Assembly (NCBI GenBank): GCA_946616835.1
Contig: CAMOJK010000019.1
Location: 1-34,312 of the forward strand
Direction: 5' to 3'
Length of the DNA stretch: 34,312 nucleotides
Origin: an uncultured Lachnospiraceae bacterium
Lineage (GTDB): Bacteria; Bacillota; Clostridia; Lachnospirales; Lachnospiraceae
Shown here: positions 783 through 18,259 of the stretch, piece after piece
Position numbering within the stretch: position 1 is the stretch's first letter
How the letters are laid out: every line of letters begins with the position of its first letter
The notes under the pieces: generated by a model
Databases searched by the model: none
What the model saw: the letters and a program-made list of their open reading frames with translations, nothing else
Told to the model about the DNA's origin: nothing
Made by a program: the position numbers and the translations under genes

Positions 783-1005
783 TCCCACACCGTATAGACT
801 CGCCTGACGGTGTAAAGTGAACCTTAGCAGTTCTCGGAAATGCATGAATACACTAGGAACGCCCCACCATGGAGGGTGGGGCGAGTGAACAACGCTACAT
901 GGATGTAGCGTGTGAACGGTTCCGGACGAGGTGGATACGTTTGGGCATTTCCGTAAGAACTGCTTGGTGAACGACCCCACCGGCAGGTGAGCTATCGGTG
1001 TGGGA
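783..1005 (+). ncRNA. Large structured non-coding RNA (raiA-like candidate)
   Basis: No coding region is convincing here, but the stretch folds into a closed multi-helix RNA. The ends pair over long range: TCCCACACCG at 783-792 with CGGTGTGGGA at 996-1005. The pairing continues inward (ATAG with CTAT, CTCGCCTG with CAGGTGAG, GGTG with CACC). A second helix of about 18 pairs joins AGCAGTTCT and CGGAAATGC (around 826-845) to GCATTTCCG and AGAACTGCT near 942-964. Inside are two perfect hairpins, CGCCCCACC/GGGTGGGGCG and ACGCTACAT/ATGTAGCGT. The motif GTGAAC occurs four times, each time beside a helix. Length, multi-branch layout and an independent terminator resemble the raiA RNA class of Firmicutes, but I cannot confirm the family without a covariance model. 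A transposon end was considered and is less likely. Confidence 0.72.
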
Positions 1006-11768: not shown

Positions 11769-11797
11769 TTGCAATAATACAAACAAAGTCTTATAAT
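11769..11797 (+). promoter_or_regulatory. Promoter of the cobalamin operon
   Basis: TTGCAA at 11769-11774 and a perfect TATAAT at 11792-11797 are separated by 17 bases, the ideal sigma-A spacing. Transcription would begin near 11804, just before the riboswitch closing helix at about 11810. The preceding stretch from 11636 holds only AT-rich sequence upstream of pfkA on the other strand. Confidence 0.75.
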
Positions 11798-11809
11798 CTT
11801 GTGTGTTTC

Positions 11810-11967
11810 GCAGGGTGCCGGAGGTCATGCTCCGGATAATAGGGAACAGGGTGAAAATCCCTGACGAGCTCGTCACCGTGATAATGACCGGCTGCTCATT
11901 TGACTGCCCACTGGAGAAATCCGGGAAGGGAAGTGGGCCGGGATGATCTTAAGTCGGGAGACCTGCC
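11810..11967 (+). ncRNA. Cobalamin (adenosylcobalamin) riboswitch aptamer
   Basis: The conserved elements appear in order: AATAGGGAA (11838-11846), CAGGGTGAAAATCCCTGACGA, a GCCCACT arm (11906-11912) pairing with AGTGGGC (11932-11938), CCGGGAAGGG, and the B12-box end GTCGGGAGACCTGCC (11953-11967). GCAGG at 11810 can pair with CCTGC at the end to close P1. The aptamer lies between a strong promoter and the cbiK start, and an intrinsic terminator follows, so binding of cobalamin should favour termination and shut down the whole operon. Confidence 0.95.
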
Positions 11968-12096
11968 TTGTGAAGATGCGTGCCGCGAGATCCGGCATGA
12001 GCGCGTCGTGGAATTGTCGTGTCCTGAAAGATCGGTAAGCAGTGTGTCCTGGTCAGGCTGTTTGCGGTGTGGAAGGAAACGGGGTTTCCGGAAGTC

Positions 12097-12177: not shown

Positions 12178-13428
12178 ATGAAAAAGAGATTTTTTGCCAT
12201 GGCATTGACAGCAATGCTGGCAGCAGGAACAGTGATGACTGGCTGTGAAGGCGGCAGTGAGCCTGCACCTGCGGAAACAGAGACTGAAGCTACGGAAGAA
12301 GCTGCTCCTTCTGCAGAGGCTACTGAGGAGGGCAGTGAAGGTTCAGCAGAGGAGGATCAGGCATTGGCAGATAATGTTGCAGAACTTATCGATGCTATCT
12401 ATGTACAGACCAGGACTGACGAGACAGATGCGCAGTGTGCTGCTGCAAAGGAAGCATGGGATGCACTTACAGATGCACAGAAAGAACTTGTAGAAGGCGA
12501 ATTTGCCGATCCCGATTATTTCGGCCGTGATACCGGTGATGCATCAAAGGACGATCCGCTTAATGCTGATGAAATAGGCGAGAATGAGATACTTGTAGTA
12601 AGCTTCGGAACATCATTCAACGACAGCCGTACAAATGACATAGGCGGTATCGAGAAAGCTATTCAGGAAGCATATCCCGACTGGTCCGTACGACGTGCTT
12701 TTACCGCACAGATCATAATCAACCACGTACAGGCTCGTGACGGTGAGTTTATTGATAATGTGGAGCAGGCTCTGGACCGTGCTGTAAGTAACGGTGTTAA
12801 GAATCTTGTTGTACAGCCTACACACCTTATGCATGGTGCTGAGTATGATGAGCTTGTTGAAGCACTTGAAAAGTACAGTGATAAATTCGAGTCAGTCATC
12901 GTTTCAGAGCCTATGCTGGGTGAAGTTGGCGCTGATGCAACAGATGTAAATGATGATAAGAAGGCTGTTGCTGAGGCGGTTGTTGCAGCTGCTGTAAGCG
13001 AGGCCGGTTTTGAGAGCCTTGATGCGGCAAAGGAAGCAGGAACCGCTATAGTTCTTATGGGACATGGTACTTCACATAAGGCAAAGGTAACCTATGAGCA
13101 GATGCAGGCACAGTTTGATGCTCTTGGATATGAGAACGTATTTGTAGGAACAGTAGAGGGTGAGCCTGAGAGCACTGAATGTTCTGCTGTTATTGATAAT
13201 GTTTCGGCTGCAGGATATACAAATGTAGTACTCAGACCTCTCATGGTTGTTGCCGGTGACCATGCAAATAACGATATGGCAGGTGATGAAGAGGATTCAT
13301 GGAAGAGCATGTTCGAAGCAAGTGGAAAGTTTGATTCAGTTGACTGCCAGATCCTTGGACTTGGTTCTATTCCTGAAATAGAAGCTATCTATGTAGCACA
13401 TATCGATGAAGCATTAAAAAAAAAATAA
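12178..13428 (+). CDS. cbiK: Exported lipoprotein anaerobic cobaltochelatase, CbiK type
   Basis: CbiK inserts Co(II) into sirohydrochlorin. This 416-residue version carries a lipoprotein signal (MKKRFFAMAL, lipobox ending at Cys23) and an Ala/Glu-rich linker (24-65). A small helical linker module follows (about 70-118: AELIDAI..., WDALTDAQKELV), then the chelatase domain (135-415). That domain has VVSFGTSFNDSR, QPTHLMHGAEYDEL, LMGHGTSH with His296, and VVAGDHANNDMAG with His362; the last two match the metal-binding histidines of Salmonella CbiK. The start follows AAAGGAGG. It is the first gene after the riboswitch. An exported chelatase cannot easily serve the cytoplasmic pathway, so capture of metal or tetrapyrrole is possible. 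The reading frame ends directly in an A10 tract. Confidence 0.9.
   Translation: MKKRFFAMALTAMLAAGTVMTGCEGGSEPAPAETETEATEEAAPSAEATEEGSEGSAEEDQALADNVAELIDAIYVQTRTDETDAQCAAAKEAWDALTDAQKELVEGEFADPDYFGRDTGDASKDDPLNADEIGENEILVVSFGTSFNDSRTNDIGGIEKAIQEAYPDWSVRRAFTAQIIINHVQARDGEFIDNVEQALDRAVSNGVKNLVVQPTHLMHGAEYDELVEALEKYSDKFESVIVSEPMLGEVGADATDVNDDKKAVAEAVVAAAVSEAGFESLDAAKEAGTAIVLMGHGTSHKAKVTYEQMQAQFDALGYENVFVGTVEGEPESTECSAVIDNVSAAGYTNVVLRPLMVVAGDHANNDMAGDEEDSWKSMFEASGKFDSVDCQILGLGSIPEIEAIYVAHIDEALKKK
13416..13425 (+). repeat. A10 homopolymer, probable frameshift or slippage site
   Basis: Ten consecutive A's span the last three CbiK lysine codons, and the TAA stop follows at once. A -1 ribosomal shift, or one extra A in the transcript, joins CbiK in frame to the next reading frame, which lacks its own start and ribosome binding site at its proper N-terminus. 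Confidence 0.7.
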
Positions 13429-14162
13429 CTCTGAGCAGTAACTTAAACGGAACATCGGGGCTGCCTGCAGATGGTACATACACAGCAGTATTTACTACAG
13501 ACAGTTCCATGTTTCATGTAAATGAAACTCTTAACGATCAGGGAACACTTACTGTAAAAAATGGTGTGGCAACGATCCATGTGAGTCTTGCCGGAGACGG
13601 AATACTGAAAGTATTCCAGGGATCTGCCGAAGATGCACAAAAGGAAGGCGCCAAGATAATTGAGCCCACCGAGGATACGGTGACATATGATGATGGTTCT
13701 ACCGAAGTGGTGAATGGCTTTGACATTCCGGTTCCCGTGATCGGCGAGGAATTTGATGTAGCTATCATAGGAAAAAAGGGAAAGTGGTACGACCATAAAG
13801 TAAAGGTTGAGCTGGCAGAGGATGCTTCAGCCGATATTCAGCTGAAAGACGGTGAATATACTGTAAAAGCAGTTCTTTCGGGTGGAACAGGTAAAGCATC
13901 TGTTACCTCACCTGCCGAGTTTACTGTTAAAGACGGTCAGGCTACAGTTTATGTTGAATTTTCAAGTGACAATTATGACTATGCCATATGGGATGATGTA
14001 AAATATACTTCAGATATTAGTTCAGGTTTGTCAGTATTTGCATTTCCTCTCGTAGGTTTTGATGTTGAGATTCCCTTTGTTGCAGATACTACAGCAATGA
14101 GCAAGCCTCACGAGATTGAATATACAATATGCTTCGATTCTTCAACTATAGAAGAAAAGTAA
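13416..14162 (+). CDS. Tandem beta-domain module, probably the C-terminal half of a CbiK fusion made by frameshifting
   Basis: The frame is open from the A10 tract to 14162. The first ATG, at 13509, falls inside the first domain: the preceding codons read LPADGTYTAVFTTDSS, the opening strands of that domain. There is no ribosome binding site and no signal peptide, so expression as part of CbiK is the simplest reading. Two beta-rich repeats are visible, each with the motif LTVKNGVATIHV or FTVKDGQATVYV and a leading TYTAVF/EYTVKA strand. The second has NYDYAIWDD and a C-terminal TTAMSKPHEIEYT. The style resembles extracellular Ig- or NEAT-like ligand-binding modules attached to Gram-positive lipoproteins; the ligand is unknown. 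The substrate-binding protein gene overlaps its end by 34 bases. Confidence 0.7.
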   Translation, partial: KKKITLSSNLNGTSGLPADGTYTAVFTTDSSMFHVNETLNDQGTLTVKNGVATIHVSLAGDGILKVFQGSAEDAQKEGAKIIEPTEDTVTYDDGSTEVVNGFDIPVPVIGEEFDVAIIGKKGKWYDHKVKVELAEDASADIQLKDGEYTVKAVLSGGTGKASVTSPAEFTVKDGQATVYVEFSSDNYDYAIWDDVKYTSDISSGLSVFAFPLVGFDVEIPFVADTTAMSKPHEIEYTICFDSSTIEEK

Positions 14163-15346
14163 ATAAACTTGTAATTACATGGACTCTTTTCGCTTGTATA
14201 TCCCTGTGCGGATGTACGGGCGGAGAGTCTTTTTCTGTTTCTGAGAATGGAAATACAGCGGAAAATATACCACAGGATGCAGAATGGGGAAATCAGGCAG
14301 CAGATGCCGGAGCTGTGCCCCTGAAGATAACCGGCATACGGGAGAATGCTGCCGCTACAGAGTTTTCCATAACTGACTATGAAGGCGGTTATACATCCAT
14401 AGAGATATCTGACGGCAGGAAATACCTGATAGTTCCCGAGGAAACTGAGATTCCGGAAGATACAATGGGAATGACGGTAATAAAAAGACCCGTGGATAAT
14501 ATCTATCTGGCAAATTCTGCGGCGATGTGTGAATTTGCAGAGCTTGAGGCCGTTGATGCTGTCAGATTTTCAGGAATAGAAAAAGACGATTGGACCATAG
14601 ATGAAGCAGTATGTGCAATTGAATCCGGCGATATGATCTTTTGCGGTAATTACGGTGCACCGGATTATGAAACACTTACGGCAGAGGGGTGTGAACTTGC
14701 AATAGAGAATACCATGGTAAACCATAAGCCTGAAGTTGTTGAGAAGCTTGAGGGCTTAGGAATACCGGTTCTGATAGATCGTGCCAGCTACGAGGCTGAT
14801 CCTATTGGCAGGATGGAGTGGATAAAGGTTTACGGCCTGATCCTCGGGAAAGAGGATGTTGCGGAGGTTGCCTTTAATGAACAGAAAGCCATAGTTGATT
14901 CAATGGAAGAGTATGGAAACACGGGTTTTACGGTGGTGGCCTGCTATGTCAGTGCCAATGGACAGATAGTCTGTACTAAAGGTGGAAGCTCATTGGCAAG
15001 GATGACTGAAATGGCCGGGGGAAACTATATACTTACTGCAGATGAGAATGATGAAAGTGTAAAGTCGACTGTAAAATACGGAATGGAAGAATTCATGACA
15101 CTTGCCGGAGAGGCGGATTTTCTGGTATATGATGCTACAATTGACCATGTCGACAGTCTGGATGATATAATAGACAAGAATGCAATGTTTGCTAATTTCA
15201 AGGCGTTTGAGGAAGGTAATGTATGGGTGATGGAAGGCTCTTTATATCAGAACTCAAATGAAGTAGGAACAATAGTCAGTGATATACATAATATGCTGAC
15301 AGGAGAAGGGGAGACAGTTCACCTCAGAAAGCTTGGAAAAAATTGA
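14129..15346 (+). CDS. ABC transporter substrate-binding lipoprotein, probable corrinoid or metal-chelate binder
   Basis: A 405-residue class III (BtuF/FepB-like) solute-binding protein. The N-terminus MLRFFNYRRKVNK is followed by a hydrophobic segment and a lipobox ending at Cys29. The two lobes follow: an N-lobe with SAAMCEFAELEAVDAV, and a C-lobe with GFTVVACYV, a long linking helix and MAGGNYI. The only start giving a signal peptide is ATG 14129, which overlaps the previous frame and has no clear ribosome binding site, suggesting coupled translation. Position in a cobalamin-riboswitch operon next to a FecCD permease suggests corrinoid uptake; the adjacent chelatase makes a cobalt-tetrapyrrole an alternative ligand. 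Confidence 0.85.
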   Translation: MLRFFNYRRKVNKLVITWTLFACISLCGCTGGESFSVSENGNTAENIPQDAEWGNQAADAGAVPLKITGIRENAAATEFSITDYEGGYTSIEISDGRKYLIVPEETEIPEDTMGMTVIKRPVDNIYLANSAAMCEFAELEAVDAVRFSGIEKDDWTIDEAVCAIESGDMIFCGNYGAPDYETLTAEGCELAIENTMVNHKPEVVEKLEGLGIPVLIDRASYEADPIGRMEWIKVYGLILGKEDVAEVAFNEQKAIVDSMEEYGNTGFTVVACYVSANGQIVCTKGGSSLARMTEMAGGNYILTADENDESVKSTVKYGMEEFMTLAGEADFLVYDATIDHVDSLDDIIDKNAMFANFKAFEEGNVWVMEGSLYQNSNEVGTIVSDIHNMLTGEGETVHLRKLGKN

Positions 15347-15360
15347 TTGGAAATAACTGA

Positions 15361-16365
15361 TTGGAAAAAGCCGGAACGAAAAAAAGAACGATCATAGGTT
15401 TTGGGATAATGTTAGTGCTGCTGGGAACGGCAGCGTTCATATCTGTTGCCGCCGGGAGTGTTTCCGTAAATATCTTTGCTCCCCTTTCGGATAATGACAG
15501 CATGATCATTTTTGATATCAGATTGCCGCGTACTCTTTTGGCGGCAGTATCAGGTGCGGCTCTTGCCGTTTCGGGATATCTTCTTCAGACCTTCTTCAGA
15601 AATCCGATAGCAGGTCCCTATGTAATGGGTATATCATCGGGAGCAAAAATGACTATGGTTCTTGCCATGACATTTGTCGTGGCAAGTGGTGGAAGCATGA
15701 CATCAGTCCTTAAGATCGTTGCGTCGTTTGCAGGTGCGCTGCTGTCAACTTTTCTGATACTCATATTGTCTTTCAGAGTTAAAAGCATGAGTGTGCTTTT
15801 GGTGGCAGGCATAATGGTGGGATATATCTGTACGGCTGTCACTGAATTCATAGTAACATTTGCTGATGACACTTCTATAATAAGCCTTCACGGCTGGGCG
15901 CAGGGAGGTTTTTCCAGTGCGGCATTTCCCGGAACGTATACTGCGGTGATACTGGTGCTTATCGGAATCGCAGGAGTATTCCTTATGTCAAAGCCTATAG
16001 GCGCATATATGCAGGGAGAAAAGTATGCTGAAAGTCTGGGGGTCAATGTCCGTGGGCTTCAATTGCTGATGATCATTTTTTCAAGCTTTCTTTCCGCGGT
16101 CGTTACAGCCTATGCCGGTCCCGTATCATTCGTTGGCATAGCAGTTCCCTTTCTTGTAAAAAAACTCATAAAGCAGTCCAGACCGATAATCCTGATACCG
16201 GCACTTATACTTGCCGGAGCTGCTTTTACTCTGTTCTGCGACATAGTTGCAAGGCTTTTGTTTTCACCGATCGAGCTGTCGCTTTCTACCGTGACGGCAT
16301 TCTTTGGTGCGCCGGTAGTTCTCTTTATAATGGCCGGGAGAAAGAGAGGGCAGCGGGATGAGTGA
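15361..16365 (+). CDS. FecCD/BtuC-family ABC permease
   Basis: A 334-residue integral membrane permease with about ten hydrophobic segments. Signatures are FDIRLPRTLLAAVSGAALAVSGYLLQ, FRNPIAGPYVMGISSGA, and the late GPVSFVGIAVPFLVK coupling region that contacts the ATPase. The TTG start at 15361, after GGAAATAACTGA, keeps the basic N-terminus (EKAGTKKR); an ATG at 15409 would cut into the first membrane helix. Its stop overlaps the next start by eight bases. Together with the preceding lipoprotein and the following ATPase domain it forms a complete type II importer, likely for corrinoids. Confidence 0.92.
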   Translation: MEKAGTKKRTIIGFGIMLVLLGTAAFISVAAGSVSVNIFAPLSDNDSMIIFDIRLPRTLLAAVSGAALAVSGYLLQTFFRNPIAGPYVMGISSGAKMTMVLAMTFVVASGGSMTSVLKIVASFAGALLSTFLILILSFRVKSMSVLLVAGIMVGYICTAVTEFIVTFADDTSIISLHGWAQGGFSSAAFPGTYTAVILVLIGIAGVFLMSKPIGAYMQGEKYAESLGVNVRGLQLLMIIFSSFLSAVVTAYAGPVSFVGIAVPFLVKKLIKQSRPIILIPALILAGAAFTLFCDIVARLLFSPIELSLSTVTAFFGAPVVLFIMAGRKRGQRDE

Positions 16366-18259
16366 CATGATAAAAGCGAGTGGGATTTCAGCAGGGTACA
16401 GTAAAAAAACAGTGCTGGAAGGAATTGACTTTGCTGTTTCGAAGGGTGAACTGATTTCATTGATCGGTCCAAACGGTGCGGGAAAGTCAACTCTCTTACA
16501 CGTGGTGGCAAGACAGCTTGAGGCAATGGCCGGTACGGTATATATATCCGGAACCGATATCCGTGAGATCAAAGGGAAAGATTTTTCAAAGAAAACAGCC
16601 GTGCTTTTTACTGCCAGGACACGACATGAAAATGAAAGCTGTTTTGATGTGGTATCGGCCGGAAGGTATCCCTATACCGGATGGTTTGGTATCCCTGAAA
16701 AAGCTGATATAGAAATAATAGAACAGGTTATGCGTGAAACCGACTGCTATGAGCTAAGGAACCTTCTTTTTGATAACCTGTCTGACGGGCAGAAACAGCG
16801 TGTGCTGATAGCGAGAGCTTTGGCACAGTGCCCTGAGGTGCTTATACTTGATGAACCTGCGGCATTCCTTGACCTGAAATATCAGATAGAGATGATGGAG
16901 CTTTTAACCTCCGTTGCACATAGGGAAGAGTCTCCTGTAACTGTATTTATGTCTGTGCATGATCTTTTTCTGGCAAACAGTTTTTCGGACCGGGTGCTGA
17001 TGGTAAAGGACGGGAAGATTTATAGATATGGTCTGCCCCAAGATGTAATGAAGTCTGAGATCCTGTCAGGACTTTATGATGTAAGCAGGGAAAAGATCGA
17101 AGAGATAATGAATCCCGGCGGAATATATGAAAGAGTCGGTGATAAAAAATTAAAAATAGGTTATACCACGGGAACTACCGCATCGCTTGCTTCTTATGGC
17201 GCGGCAATGCTTTTGCTTACGGGGGAGGTCCCGGATAAGCTTTCGCTGTATACGCCCGGAGGAATGTTGGTCAGCGTGTCGGCGGAGTCATCGGAGCTTC
17301 TTGAAGATGGAAAGCTTGCTGTATGCACCGTTAAGAAAAGAGCAGGAGACGATCCGGATGTGACGGATGGTATAAAGATTACATCAAGTGTCAGATTAAA
17401 CGAAAGCGGTACTGTCAATATCGATGGAGGGGCCGGTATAGGGCGGGTGACCAAGCCGGGACTTGACCGCAGTATTGGAGAAGCTGCCATTAATTCTGTA
17501 CCAAGGAAAATGATAACGGAAAGTGTGATCCGTGCAGCCGATGAAAACGGATACGAGGGAGGCTTTGATGTGGTGATATCCGCAGAGGACGGTGCAGTAC
17601 GGGCGAAGAATACAATGAATCCTTACCTTGGGATAGAGGGGGGGATATCTATCCTCGGGACCAGCGGTATAGTAGAGCCTATGTCTGAAAGGGCTGTGGT
17701 GAAAACCATAGAAGTGGCCTTAAAGCAGATACGCAGCGAAGGTGCAGAGAGGGTGATACTCACGCCGGGAAATCTGGGCGAAGACTTTATAAAGAAGTGC
17801 ATGGATCCTAAGCTTGGCATCAGATATGCCAGAGTTTCTAACTTTATCGGGGATGCGATAGAGCTGTGCAAGGCAGGCGGTTTTAAGGAAGTAATGCTTA
17901 TCGGCCACACAGGAAAGCTCATAAAGATAGCCGGTGGCGCAATGAATACCCACTCATCCTACGCTGACGGAAGACAGGAAGTTATAGGCTTTCATGCTGC
18001 TATGTGCGGTGCACCGGCTGAATGCATAAAAAAGATAGGTGATCAGGTTACAACGGAAGCCTGTGTGGATATCTTGAAAGAGTATAATGTATTGGAGGCT
18101 GCTACACAGGGGATACTTGATGCCATACAGAGCAGGCTTGAAAGGAAAGCAGGAGAGAATATGAGGATCGGCGCACTTTTGCTTACAAGGAAGTACGGCG
18201 TATTCGGGGTAACTGACAAAGGCAGGGAACTGATAAAAGAGTGGGGCGGTGAGATTTAG
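16358..18259 (+). CDS. cbiD: Fusion of ABC importer ATPase and CbiD (cobalt-precorrin-5B C1-methyltransferase)
   Basis: Two whole proteins in one 633-codon frame. Residues 1-250 are a FecE/BtuD-type ATPase: Walker A GPNGAGKST, an atypical signature LSDGQKQR, Walker B VLILDEPAAFLDL and the switch His in SVHD; the usual Q-loop region reads LFTART. Residues about 251-633 are CbiD, which methylates C1 of the corrin ring precursor. It opens with IGYTTGTTAS (the family norm is GYTTGTCA, so Cys is replaced by Thr) and contains GIGRVTKPGL, NPYLGIEGGISILGTSGIVEPMS and LIGHTGKLIKIAGG. An in-frame ATG at 17108, after GAAGAGAT, would give a free 383-residue CbiD of normal size, so both forms may be made. 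The fusion ties uptake directly to biosynthesis. Confidence 0.92.
   Translation: MSDMIKASGISAGYSKKTVLEGIDFAVSKGELISLIGPNGAGKSTLLHVVARQLEAMAGTVYISGTDIREIKGKDFSKKTAVLFTARTRHENESCFDVVSAGRYPYTGWFGIPEKADIEIIEQVMRETDCYELRNLLFDNLSDGQKQRVLIARALAQCPEVLILDEPAAFLDLKYQIEMMELLTSVAHREESPVTVFMSVHDLFLANSFSDRVLMVKDGKIYRYGLPQDVMKSEILSGLYDVSREKIEEIMNPGGIYERVGDKKLKIGYTTGTTASLASYGAAMLLLTGEVPDKLSLYTPGGMLVSVSAESSELLEDGKLAVCTVKKRAGDDPDVTDGIKITSSVRLNESGTVNIDGGAGIGRVTKPGLDRSIGEAAINSVPRKMITESVIRAADENGYEGGFDVVISAEDGAVRAKNTMNPYLGIEGGISILGTSGIVEPMSERAVVKTIEVALKQIRSEGAERVILTPGNLGEDFIKKCMDPKLGIRYARVSNFIGDAIELCKAGGFKEVMLIGHTGKLIKIAGGAMNTHSSYADGRQEVIGFHAAMCGAPAECIKKIGDQVTTEACVDILKEYNVLEAATQGILDAIQSRLERKAGENMRIGALLLTRKYGVFGVTDKGRELIKEWGGEI

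Follow-up and report, generated by a model that had tools for sequence, protein, structure and literature searches.

The window, a stretch of 34,312 nucleotides from an uncultured Lachnospiraceae bacterium (contig 19 of a 178-contig assembly of 3,046,760 bases, 85.6% complete), raises the question of how a reading frame without a start of its own comes to be expressed. The gene of an exported CbiK-like chelatase ends in a run of ten A's and a stop codon, and the next frame, offset by -1, encodes a module of two beta domains. The locus also includes a cobalamin riboswitch aptamer and an adjoining ABC transporter, as follows:

11796..11984 (+), RF00174 aptamer of a cobalamin riboswitch, preceding the CbiK gene (102.9 bits in Rfam, E 6.7e-25)
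12178..13428 (+), exported CbiK-like chelatase of 416 aa, an open reading frame from the ATG at 12178 (PF06180, CbiK, 245.3 bits over residues 138-413)
12244..12246 (+), Cys23 of the putative lipoprotein signal in the CbiK N-terminus MKKRFFAMALTAMLAAGTVMTGC, read by eye
13416..13425 (+), A10 tract at which slippage is proposed, with the same sequence in two other species
13426..13428 (+), TAA stop codon of the CbiK frame, from the sequence
13425..14162 (+), frame of the NEAT module, offset by -1 from CbiK, 245 codons and a stop codon (dN/dS of ~0.06 against the related genome AB2028)
13449..13515 (+), predicted RNA stem 3' of the tract (z -2.66), beginning ~23 nt past it
13467..13814 (+), first beta domain, putative NEAT1 (position, family alignment and AlphaFold model)
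13839..14156 (+), second beta domain, NEAT2
14129..15346 (+), substrate-binding lipoprotein of the neighbouring ABC transporter (Peripla_BP_2), whose ATG overlaps the 3' end of the NEAT frame
15361..16365 (+), permease of the FecCD type (among NCBIfam rows BtuC fits best, though far below its equivalog cut-off)
16358..18259 (+), ABC ATPase fused to CbiD in one frame, 633 aa

A TwoAYGGAY RNA (RF01731, 96 bits) was also found in the window, at 811-978 (+).

The CbiK frame closes with TTA AAA AAA AAA TAA (...ALKKK*), the first A of the tract being the third base of a codon, and the TAA follows the tract immediately, exactly as stated in the original prediction. Its claim that the next frame has neither a start codon nor a signal peptide was borne out as well. 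The NEAT frame is open from 13410 to its stop at 14160-14162 and reads KKK-ITLSSNLNGTSGLPADGTYTAVF... across the junction; its first ATG, GTG or TTG is the ATG at 13509, already within NEAT1, and it has no signal peptide. The whole assembly contains two A/T runs of ten or more, one of which is the A10 at this junction.

We examined the identity of the two protein halves. The CbiK motifs MGHGTSH and VAGDHA align with the cobalt chelatase 1qgo, which we take to be the Salmonella enzyme, with the aligned His residues presumably catalytic. The score against the NCBIfam equivalog for sirohydrochlorin cobaltochelatase (186.9 bits) is far under the cut-off of 400, so this particular function should not be transferred to the protein. 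The NEAT pair scored 37.9 bits with PF05031 (gathering threshold, 32.8), its best stretch lying in the second domain, and 30 of the 33 aligned members, the window included, matched this family at E 0.01 or better. The predicted fold of the second domain is indeed the NEAT beta-sandwich, and we firmly assign this domain to NEAT on sequence and predicted fold. The first domain obtained an AlphaFold model with block means mostly of 90 or more, the fold matches listed fall mainly on residues 139-243, and its designation as NEAT1 is taken from its position and the family alignment rather than from a match of its own. What had been predicted as a ligand-binding beta module can therefore be specified as NEAT-type, firmly for the second domain and provisionally for the first. 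A profile of the module matched no solved NEAT structure by sequence (one match at E 0.42). Invariant columns of the 33 members include H229, Y233, Y184, and Y186, and the heme-ligating pair of tyrosines four residues apart is absent from the conserved columns, as judged by sequence only. PMC5026354 describes, for NEAT domains, a heme-ligating tyrosine and a second tyrosine four residues on; ChtD and ChtE of C. perfringens are also without the pair, yet such proteins bind heme according to the title of that article.

We then searched for the same arrangement in relatives. The NEAT module was present in 24 of the 35 genomes of the window's genus, its own genome counted, and the window arrangement (A10 and the same frames) recurred in two more species, UBA4364 (98% identical) and AB2028 (91% identical, in a record not labelled MAG). 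The three genomes of this window clade are counted as species, since each species is represented in the collection by a single genome. Among the relatives, the best 80 of 370 were kept, and 127 further stretches, a subset of the matches, were taken. The family draw gave a match in 143 of 397 genomes, with loci taken from 66 genomes, mainly fused and shorter-frame loci; this sample omits most separate-type loci with longer frames of their own, and a second family draw gave the same genomes as the first. In the genus of G429 (locus L049, Butyrivibrio), 59 of 79 genomes had a match and 55 of the 59 were taken, and a further draw among the relatives of G323, in which 71 of 295 had a match, added G510 and otherwise mostly genomes already sampled.

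The census was based on 237 loci, which gave 175 rows by exact junction string in which NEAT1 comes after the end of CbiK. Collapsing five near-duplicates left 170 rows (102 separate, 63 fused, and 5 shifted) and L238 added one shifted row; the window and UBA4364, which have identical junctions, were counted once. The resulting 171 distinct CbiK-to-NEAT1 junctions comprise 102 cases of separate genes, 63 in-frame fusions, and 6 junctions that are out of frame. As the small-flank rule of the census would class the G510 junction as separate, we added a check for a hydrophobic segment, which relies on a hydrophobicity threshold and not on a signal predictor. All 105 uncollapsed separate NEAT rows had such a segment after their own start codon, and none was found to lack it.

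The one-frame fusion orthologues for which the original prediction had suggested a search were thus found (63/171). Orthologues of the second frame with their own start and signal peptide, which it had set against a joined product, exist too (102/171), but none belongs to the three species of the window clade; they represent a different layout, used by other members of the family and genus. These numbers bear on a homopolymer error in sequencing or assembly, by which the gene would be an ordinary in-frame fusion. The frequency of such fusions and the fragmented state of the window's assembly are in line with an error, but the A10 is agreed on by three assemblies of three species, AB2028 among them, and two further species, G323 and G510 of the genus g290, agree on A9. 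Since the same A10 was obtained in three assemblies of three species, we rejected sequencing error as very unlikely, to the point of being negligible.

Evaluation of tract length revealed A9 or A10 at all six out-of-frame junctions (A10 in window/UBA4364, AB2028, G210, and G429; A9 in G323 and G510) versus A9 at 3 of the 165 others (the in-frame fusions L234 and L236 and the separate pair L103), an association with a Fisher's exact p of 2.6e-9 when rows are taken as independent, which they are not fully. In 822.7 kb of nonduplicate junction-bearing loci, we counted 15 A/T runs of at least nine, and the runs of at least ten were all located at shifted junctions (4/4, two of them in the window clade). 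An A/T run of about nine or more at a frame transition, as used to recognize slippage genes, is therefore present as A10 in three lineages and as A9 in g290.

The shifted rows fell in four separate places of a quick FastTree phylogeny of CbiK: the window clade (support 99), G429 next to the in-frame fusion L051 (support 87), G323 next to the in-frame fusion L134 (support 88), and G210 next to the separately encoded pair L108 (a weak support of 49). G510, the genus mate of G323, is absent from this tree. The deep branches around the window clade are weakly supported, so this clade may have originated either from a fusion or from separate genes. Conservation of the tract and of the offset holds within lineages, across three window-clade species and two g290 species, and is not family-wide, as 165 of the 171 junctions are unshifted. 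G323 and G510 both kept A9 and the -1 offset, with different flanks and with the tract beginning at codon position 1 and 3, respectively; the codon phase thus differs, and what has been kept is the length of the tract and not one codon-phased heptamer. In all seven species with a shifted junction, no start codon precedes the Met inside NEAT1. Tracts also occur at the junction of in-frame CbiK-NEAT fusions (A9 in L234 and L236; A8 in L235, L210, and L154), and a one-base slip in these would lead to an early stop in most cases, within a few codons for one A in L234 and L236.

Although it has no start codon, the NEAT frame is under purifying selection. Between the window and AB2028, we obtained a dN of 0.047 and a dS of 0.737 for the NEAT frame (dN/dS of ~0.06) and a dN of 0.028 and a dS of 0.446 for CbiK. 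Between G323 and G510, the values were 0.119 and 1.399 for NEAT1 and 0.144 and 1.904 for NEAT2, with dS in the near-saturated range of 0.9-1.9 and dN/dS of up to ~0.09. A neutral frame break with both halves intact is not expected to last over such a divergence. The second frame could still belong to a decayed gene or be started internally and remain cytoplasmic, readings for which we found nothing beyond the frame break itself and to which we give very little credence. We rejected decay on the dN/dS of ~0.06 and internal initiation on the lack of a start codon ahead of the Met inside NEAT1; the frame also has no signal peptide, whereas the separately encoded NEAT rows all have their hydrophobic segment. 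Low divergence at the junction was not counted as evidence. The window and AB2028 differ at a single position (13323) within 13187-13481, where about forty differences are expected from the overall rate, and the window and UBA4364 show a mosaic, with 27 of their 58 differences inside 180 bases, so that recombination explains the pattern equally well. The three window-clade species diverge patchily at 12881-13060 and 13187-13481, which suggests recombination within the CbiK gene.

The junction is real and conserved within its clade, and A-tract slippage is its best reading; among the three readings offered at the outset (programmed slippage, a phase-variable tract, and a sequencing error), the first is indeed the best supported. 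We propose that CbiK and the NEAT frame are probably one gene whose expression involves slippage at the RNA level on the A10 tract, most likely stuttering of the RNA polymerase. RNA with A10 would yield the free exported CbiK lipoprotein of 416 aa, RNA with A11 or A8 would yield a CbiK-NEAT-NEAT lipoprotein of 661 or 660 aa, respectively, and RNA with A9 or A12 would yield a CbiK of 420 or 421 aa. The cell surface would then carry a mix of free and NEAT-tethered chelatase. In G429, where the NEAT frame is at +1, a change in tract length of -1 or +2 (A9 or A12) would join the two halves.

Two proteins could also arise from one mRNA species by programmed -1 ribosomal frameshifting on A_AAA_AAA. 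All seven species have an A_AAA_AAx heptamer at the tract, in frame with CbiK, and the 3' stem is unusually stable in the window (z -2.66, with 2 of 200 shuffles as stable) and in AB2028 (z -2.89). However, the start of the window stem ~23 nt past the tract makes it weak evidence for any role, the other lineages do not show comparable stability (z of -0.30, 0.47, -1.57, and -0.70), and folding against shuffles detected no shared 3' RNA stimulator outside the window clade. Furthermore, a -1 shift suffices in three lineages but would give a short product in G429, where NEAT needs +1. Because this +1 is out of reach of a -1 ribosomal shift, a single mechanism for the four lineages is more easily provided by a change in RNA tract length, and we consider ribosomal frameshifting rather unlikely.

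Alternatively, the tract length might change in the DNA, so that individual cells switch production of the CbiK-NEAT fusion on or off. For such phase variation, a homopolymer that breaks the frame of a surface lipoprotein gene is a classic setting; A8 or A9 tracts are found at the junction of some in-frame fused relatives (L154, L210, L234, L235, and L236), and Baranov et al. (PMC1088944) caution that replication slippage is still possible even where a run is conserved. In addition, the other long tract of the genome differs from that of a relative (A11 versus A9). Nevertheless, A10 is uniform in the three window-clade species (one genome per species) and A9 is shared by both g290 species despite their large synonymous divergence, so that the lengths are not scattered, whereas a phase-variable tract should have left some of these species in frame. 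We thus regard phase variation as unlikely.

This other tract, the second A/T run of at least ten in the assembly, is an A11 at C9:3136-3146 (G000; L244 1501-1511) and is also located at a frame transition, where a short frame, MEQGYHNEHLREQVKKKIR*, is followed by a -1 frame leading into a protein without a Pfam match at E 0.001. G021, which is 97% identical, has nine A's at this site and one continuous frame. The C9 site cuts both ways: it fits an organism that avoids long A tracts other than at frame junctions, and it shows a change in length between relatives.

Slippage on the A tract of the CbiK gene, our preferred reading, has arguments against it. Long A runs can also undergo replication slippage, with C9 as an example of tract drift, and the tract may be maintained as a tolerated rescue rather than for a useful expression of two products. 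Most relatives do without it, 165 of the 171 junctions being plain fusions or separate genes. We tentatively suggest, as a possibility that goes further, that poly-A slippage evolved at least four times in this one family as a stable state between fusion and separation, which would fix the ratio of free to tethered chelatase and would exist in both slip-to-fuse and slip-to-truncate forms.

Some bacterial genes and IS elements are known to yield two proteins by transcriptional slippage. According to PMC4256274, tssM1 of C. rodentium has an A11 with a stop 28 nt downstream, its RNAs contain 10-15 A's, ~20-25% frameshifting gives the long product, and both forms and their ratio are needed, while tssM3 of Yersinia pseudotuberculosis has an A9 in frame from which slippage gives a short form. 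As described there, these genes share with the CbiK junction an A run just upstream of a stop, a next frame that encodes the missing C-terminal domain, and two length variants; the out-of-frame layout is that of the window clade, and the in-frame A9 layout is that of L234 and L236. They belong to another protein family, whereas the present case is an exported lipoprotein of Lachnospiraceae known from sequence alone, in which the same junction gained tracts in four lineages. A different gene with a cytoplasmic product, dnaX, offers a second comparison. In its form with 10 A's, and in the GeneTack clusters (sections of PMC3711429), an A10 is likewise found where frames meet and programmed transcriptional realignment was inferred; the main text of that article has 0 occurrences of CbiK. 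In the portions of PMC3711429, PMC5009743, and PMC9227772 that deal with chlD, a magnesium/cobalt chelatase, we found again a tetrapyrrole metal chelatase with two products from one gene and an A-rich slip site, but of another chelatase class and described as ribosomal -1 frameshifting at A_AAA_AAR. The open-licence PMC listings that we searched showed neither slippage in a CbiK or NEAT gene nor a fusion of CbiK with NEAT. A mechanism of this kind is already known; what these listings did not show is the gene, its position on the cell surface, and the repeated appearance at the same junction in four lineages.

NEAT domains bind heme. From the protein families present, we infer a surface system that may bind or exchange metal in tetrapyrroles. 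Because the Tyr pair is not conserved, heme is a candidate ligand only, and cobalt tetrapyrroles are equally likely in this cobalamin context. The NEAT heme proteins IsdX, Isd, and Hbp2 differ from the window module, which is without the conserved Tyr pair and is fused or adjacent to CbiK. The chelatase mix would probably handle tetrapyrroles next to the ABC importer, in a cobalamin-biosynthesis operon, and a mixture of free and tethered forms could, at a guess, balance capture against turnover. The CbiK half is also similar in sequence to the "Heme-binding protein FetB" of PDB 9b86 (E 2.1e-37), which is presumably located outside the cytoplasm. Judging from its name, this is the P. gingivalis FetB that the accessible part of PMC13402209 presents as a chelatase exchanging metals in porphyrins. 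FetB comes from a different phylum, and the same part of that article mentions neither NEAT domains nor slippage. The analysis makes visible an exported CbiK-NEAT tetrapyrrole system in Lachnospiraceae, the NEAT half of which annotation pipelines may list as truncated or may miss. Across the family, the two domains that meet at this junction are fused in some members, encoded apart in others, and apparently joined by slippage in a few, which provides a natural experiment on why a cell would want a mixture, and direct tests should be possible in AB2028, since its record is not labelled MAG.

The relative positioning of the two parts varies beyond these junctions. NEAT1 was found without an upstream CbiK end in 44 loci, and in 39 of the 44 it precedes CbiK in the same frame; the reverse order of signal peptide, NEAT1, and exported CbiK in one frame is seen in L184, L197, L130, and others, largely from the genus of G429. 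That CbiK and NEAT domains are joined in several ways supports a joint function. We also observed a TGA after a CbiK-NEAT1 fusion (L041, position 2842), after which NEAT2 continues in frame without an intervening signal peptide, and an in-frame TAG within an otherwise open exported CbiK in genome G015 (L019, position 1219).
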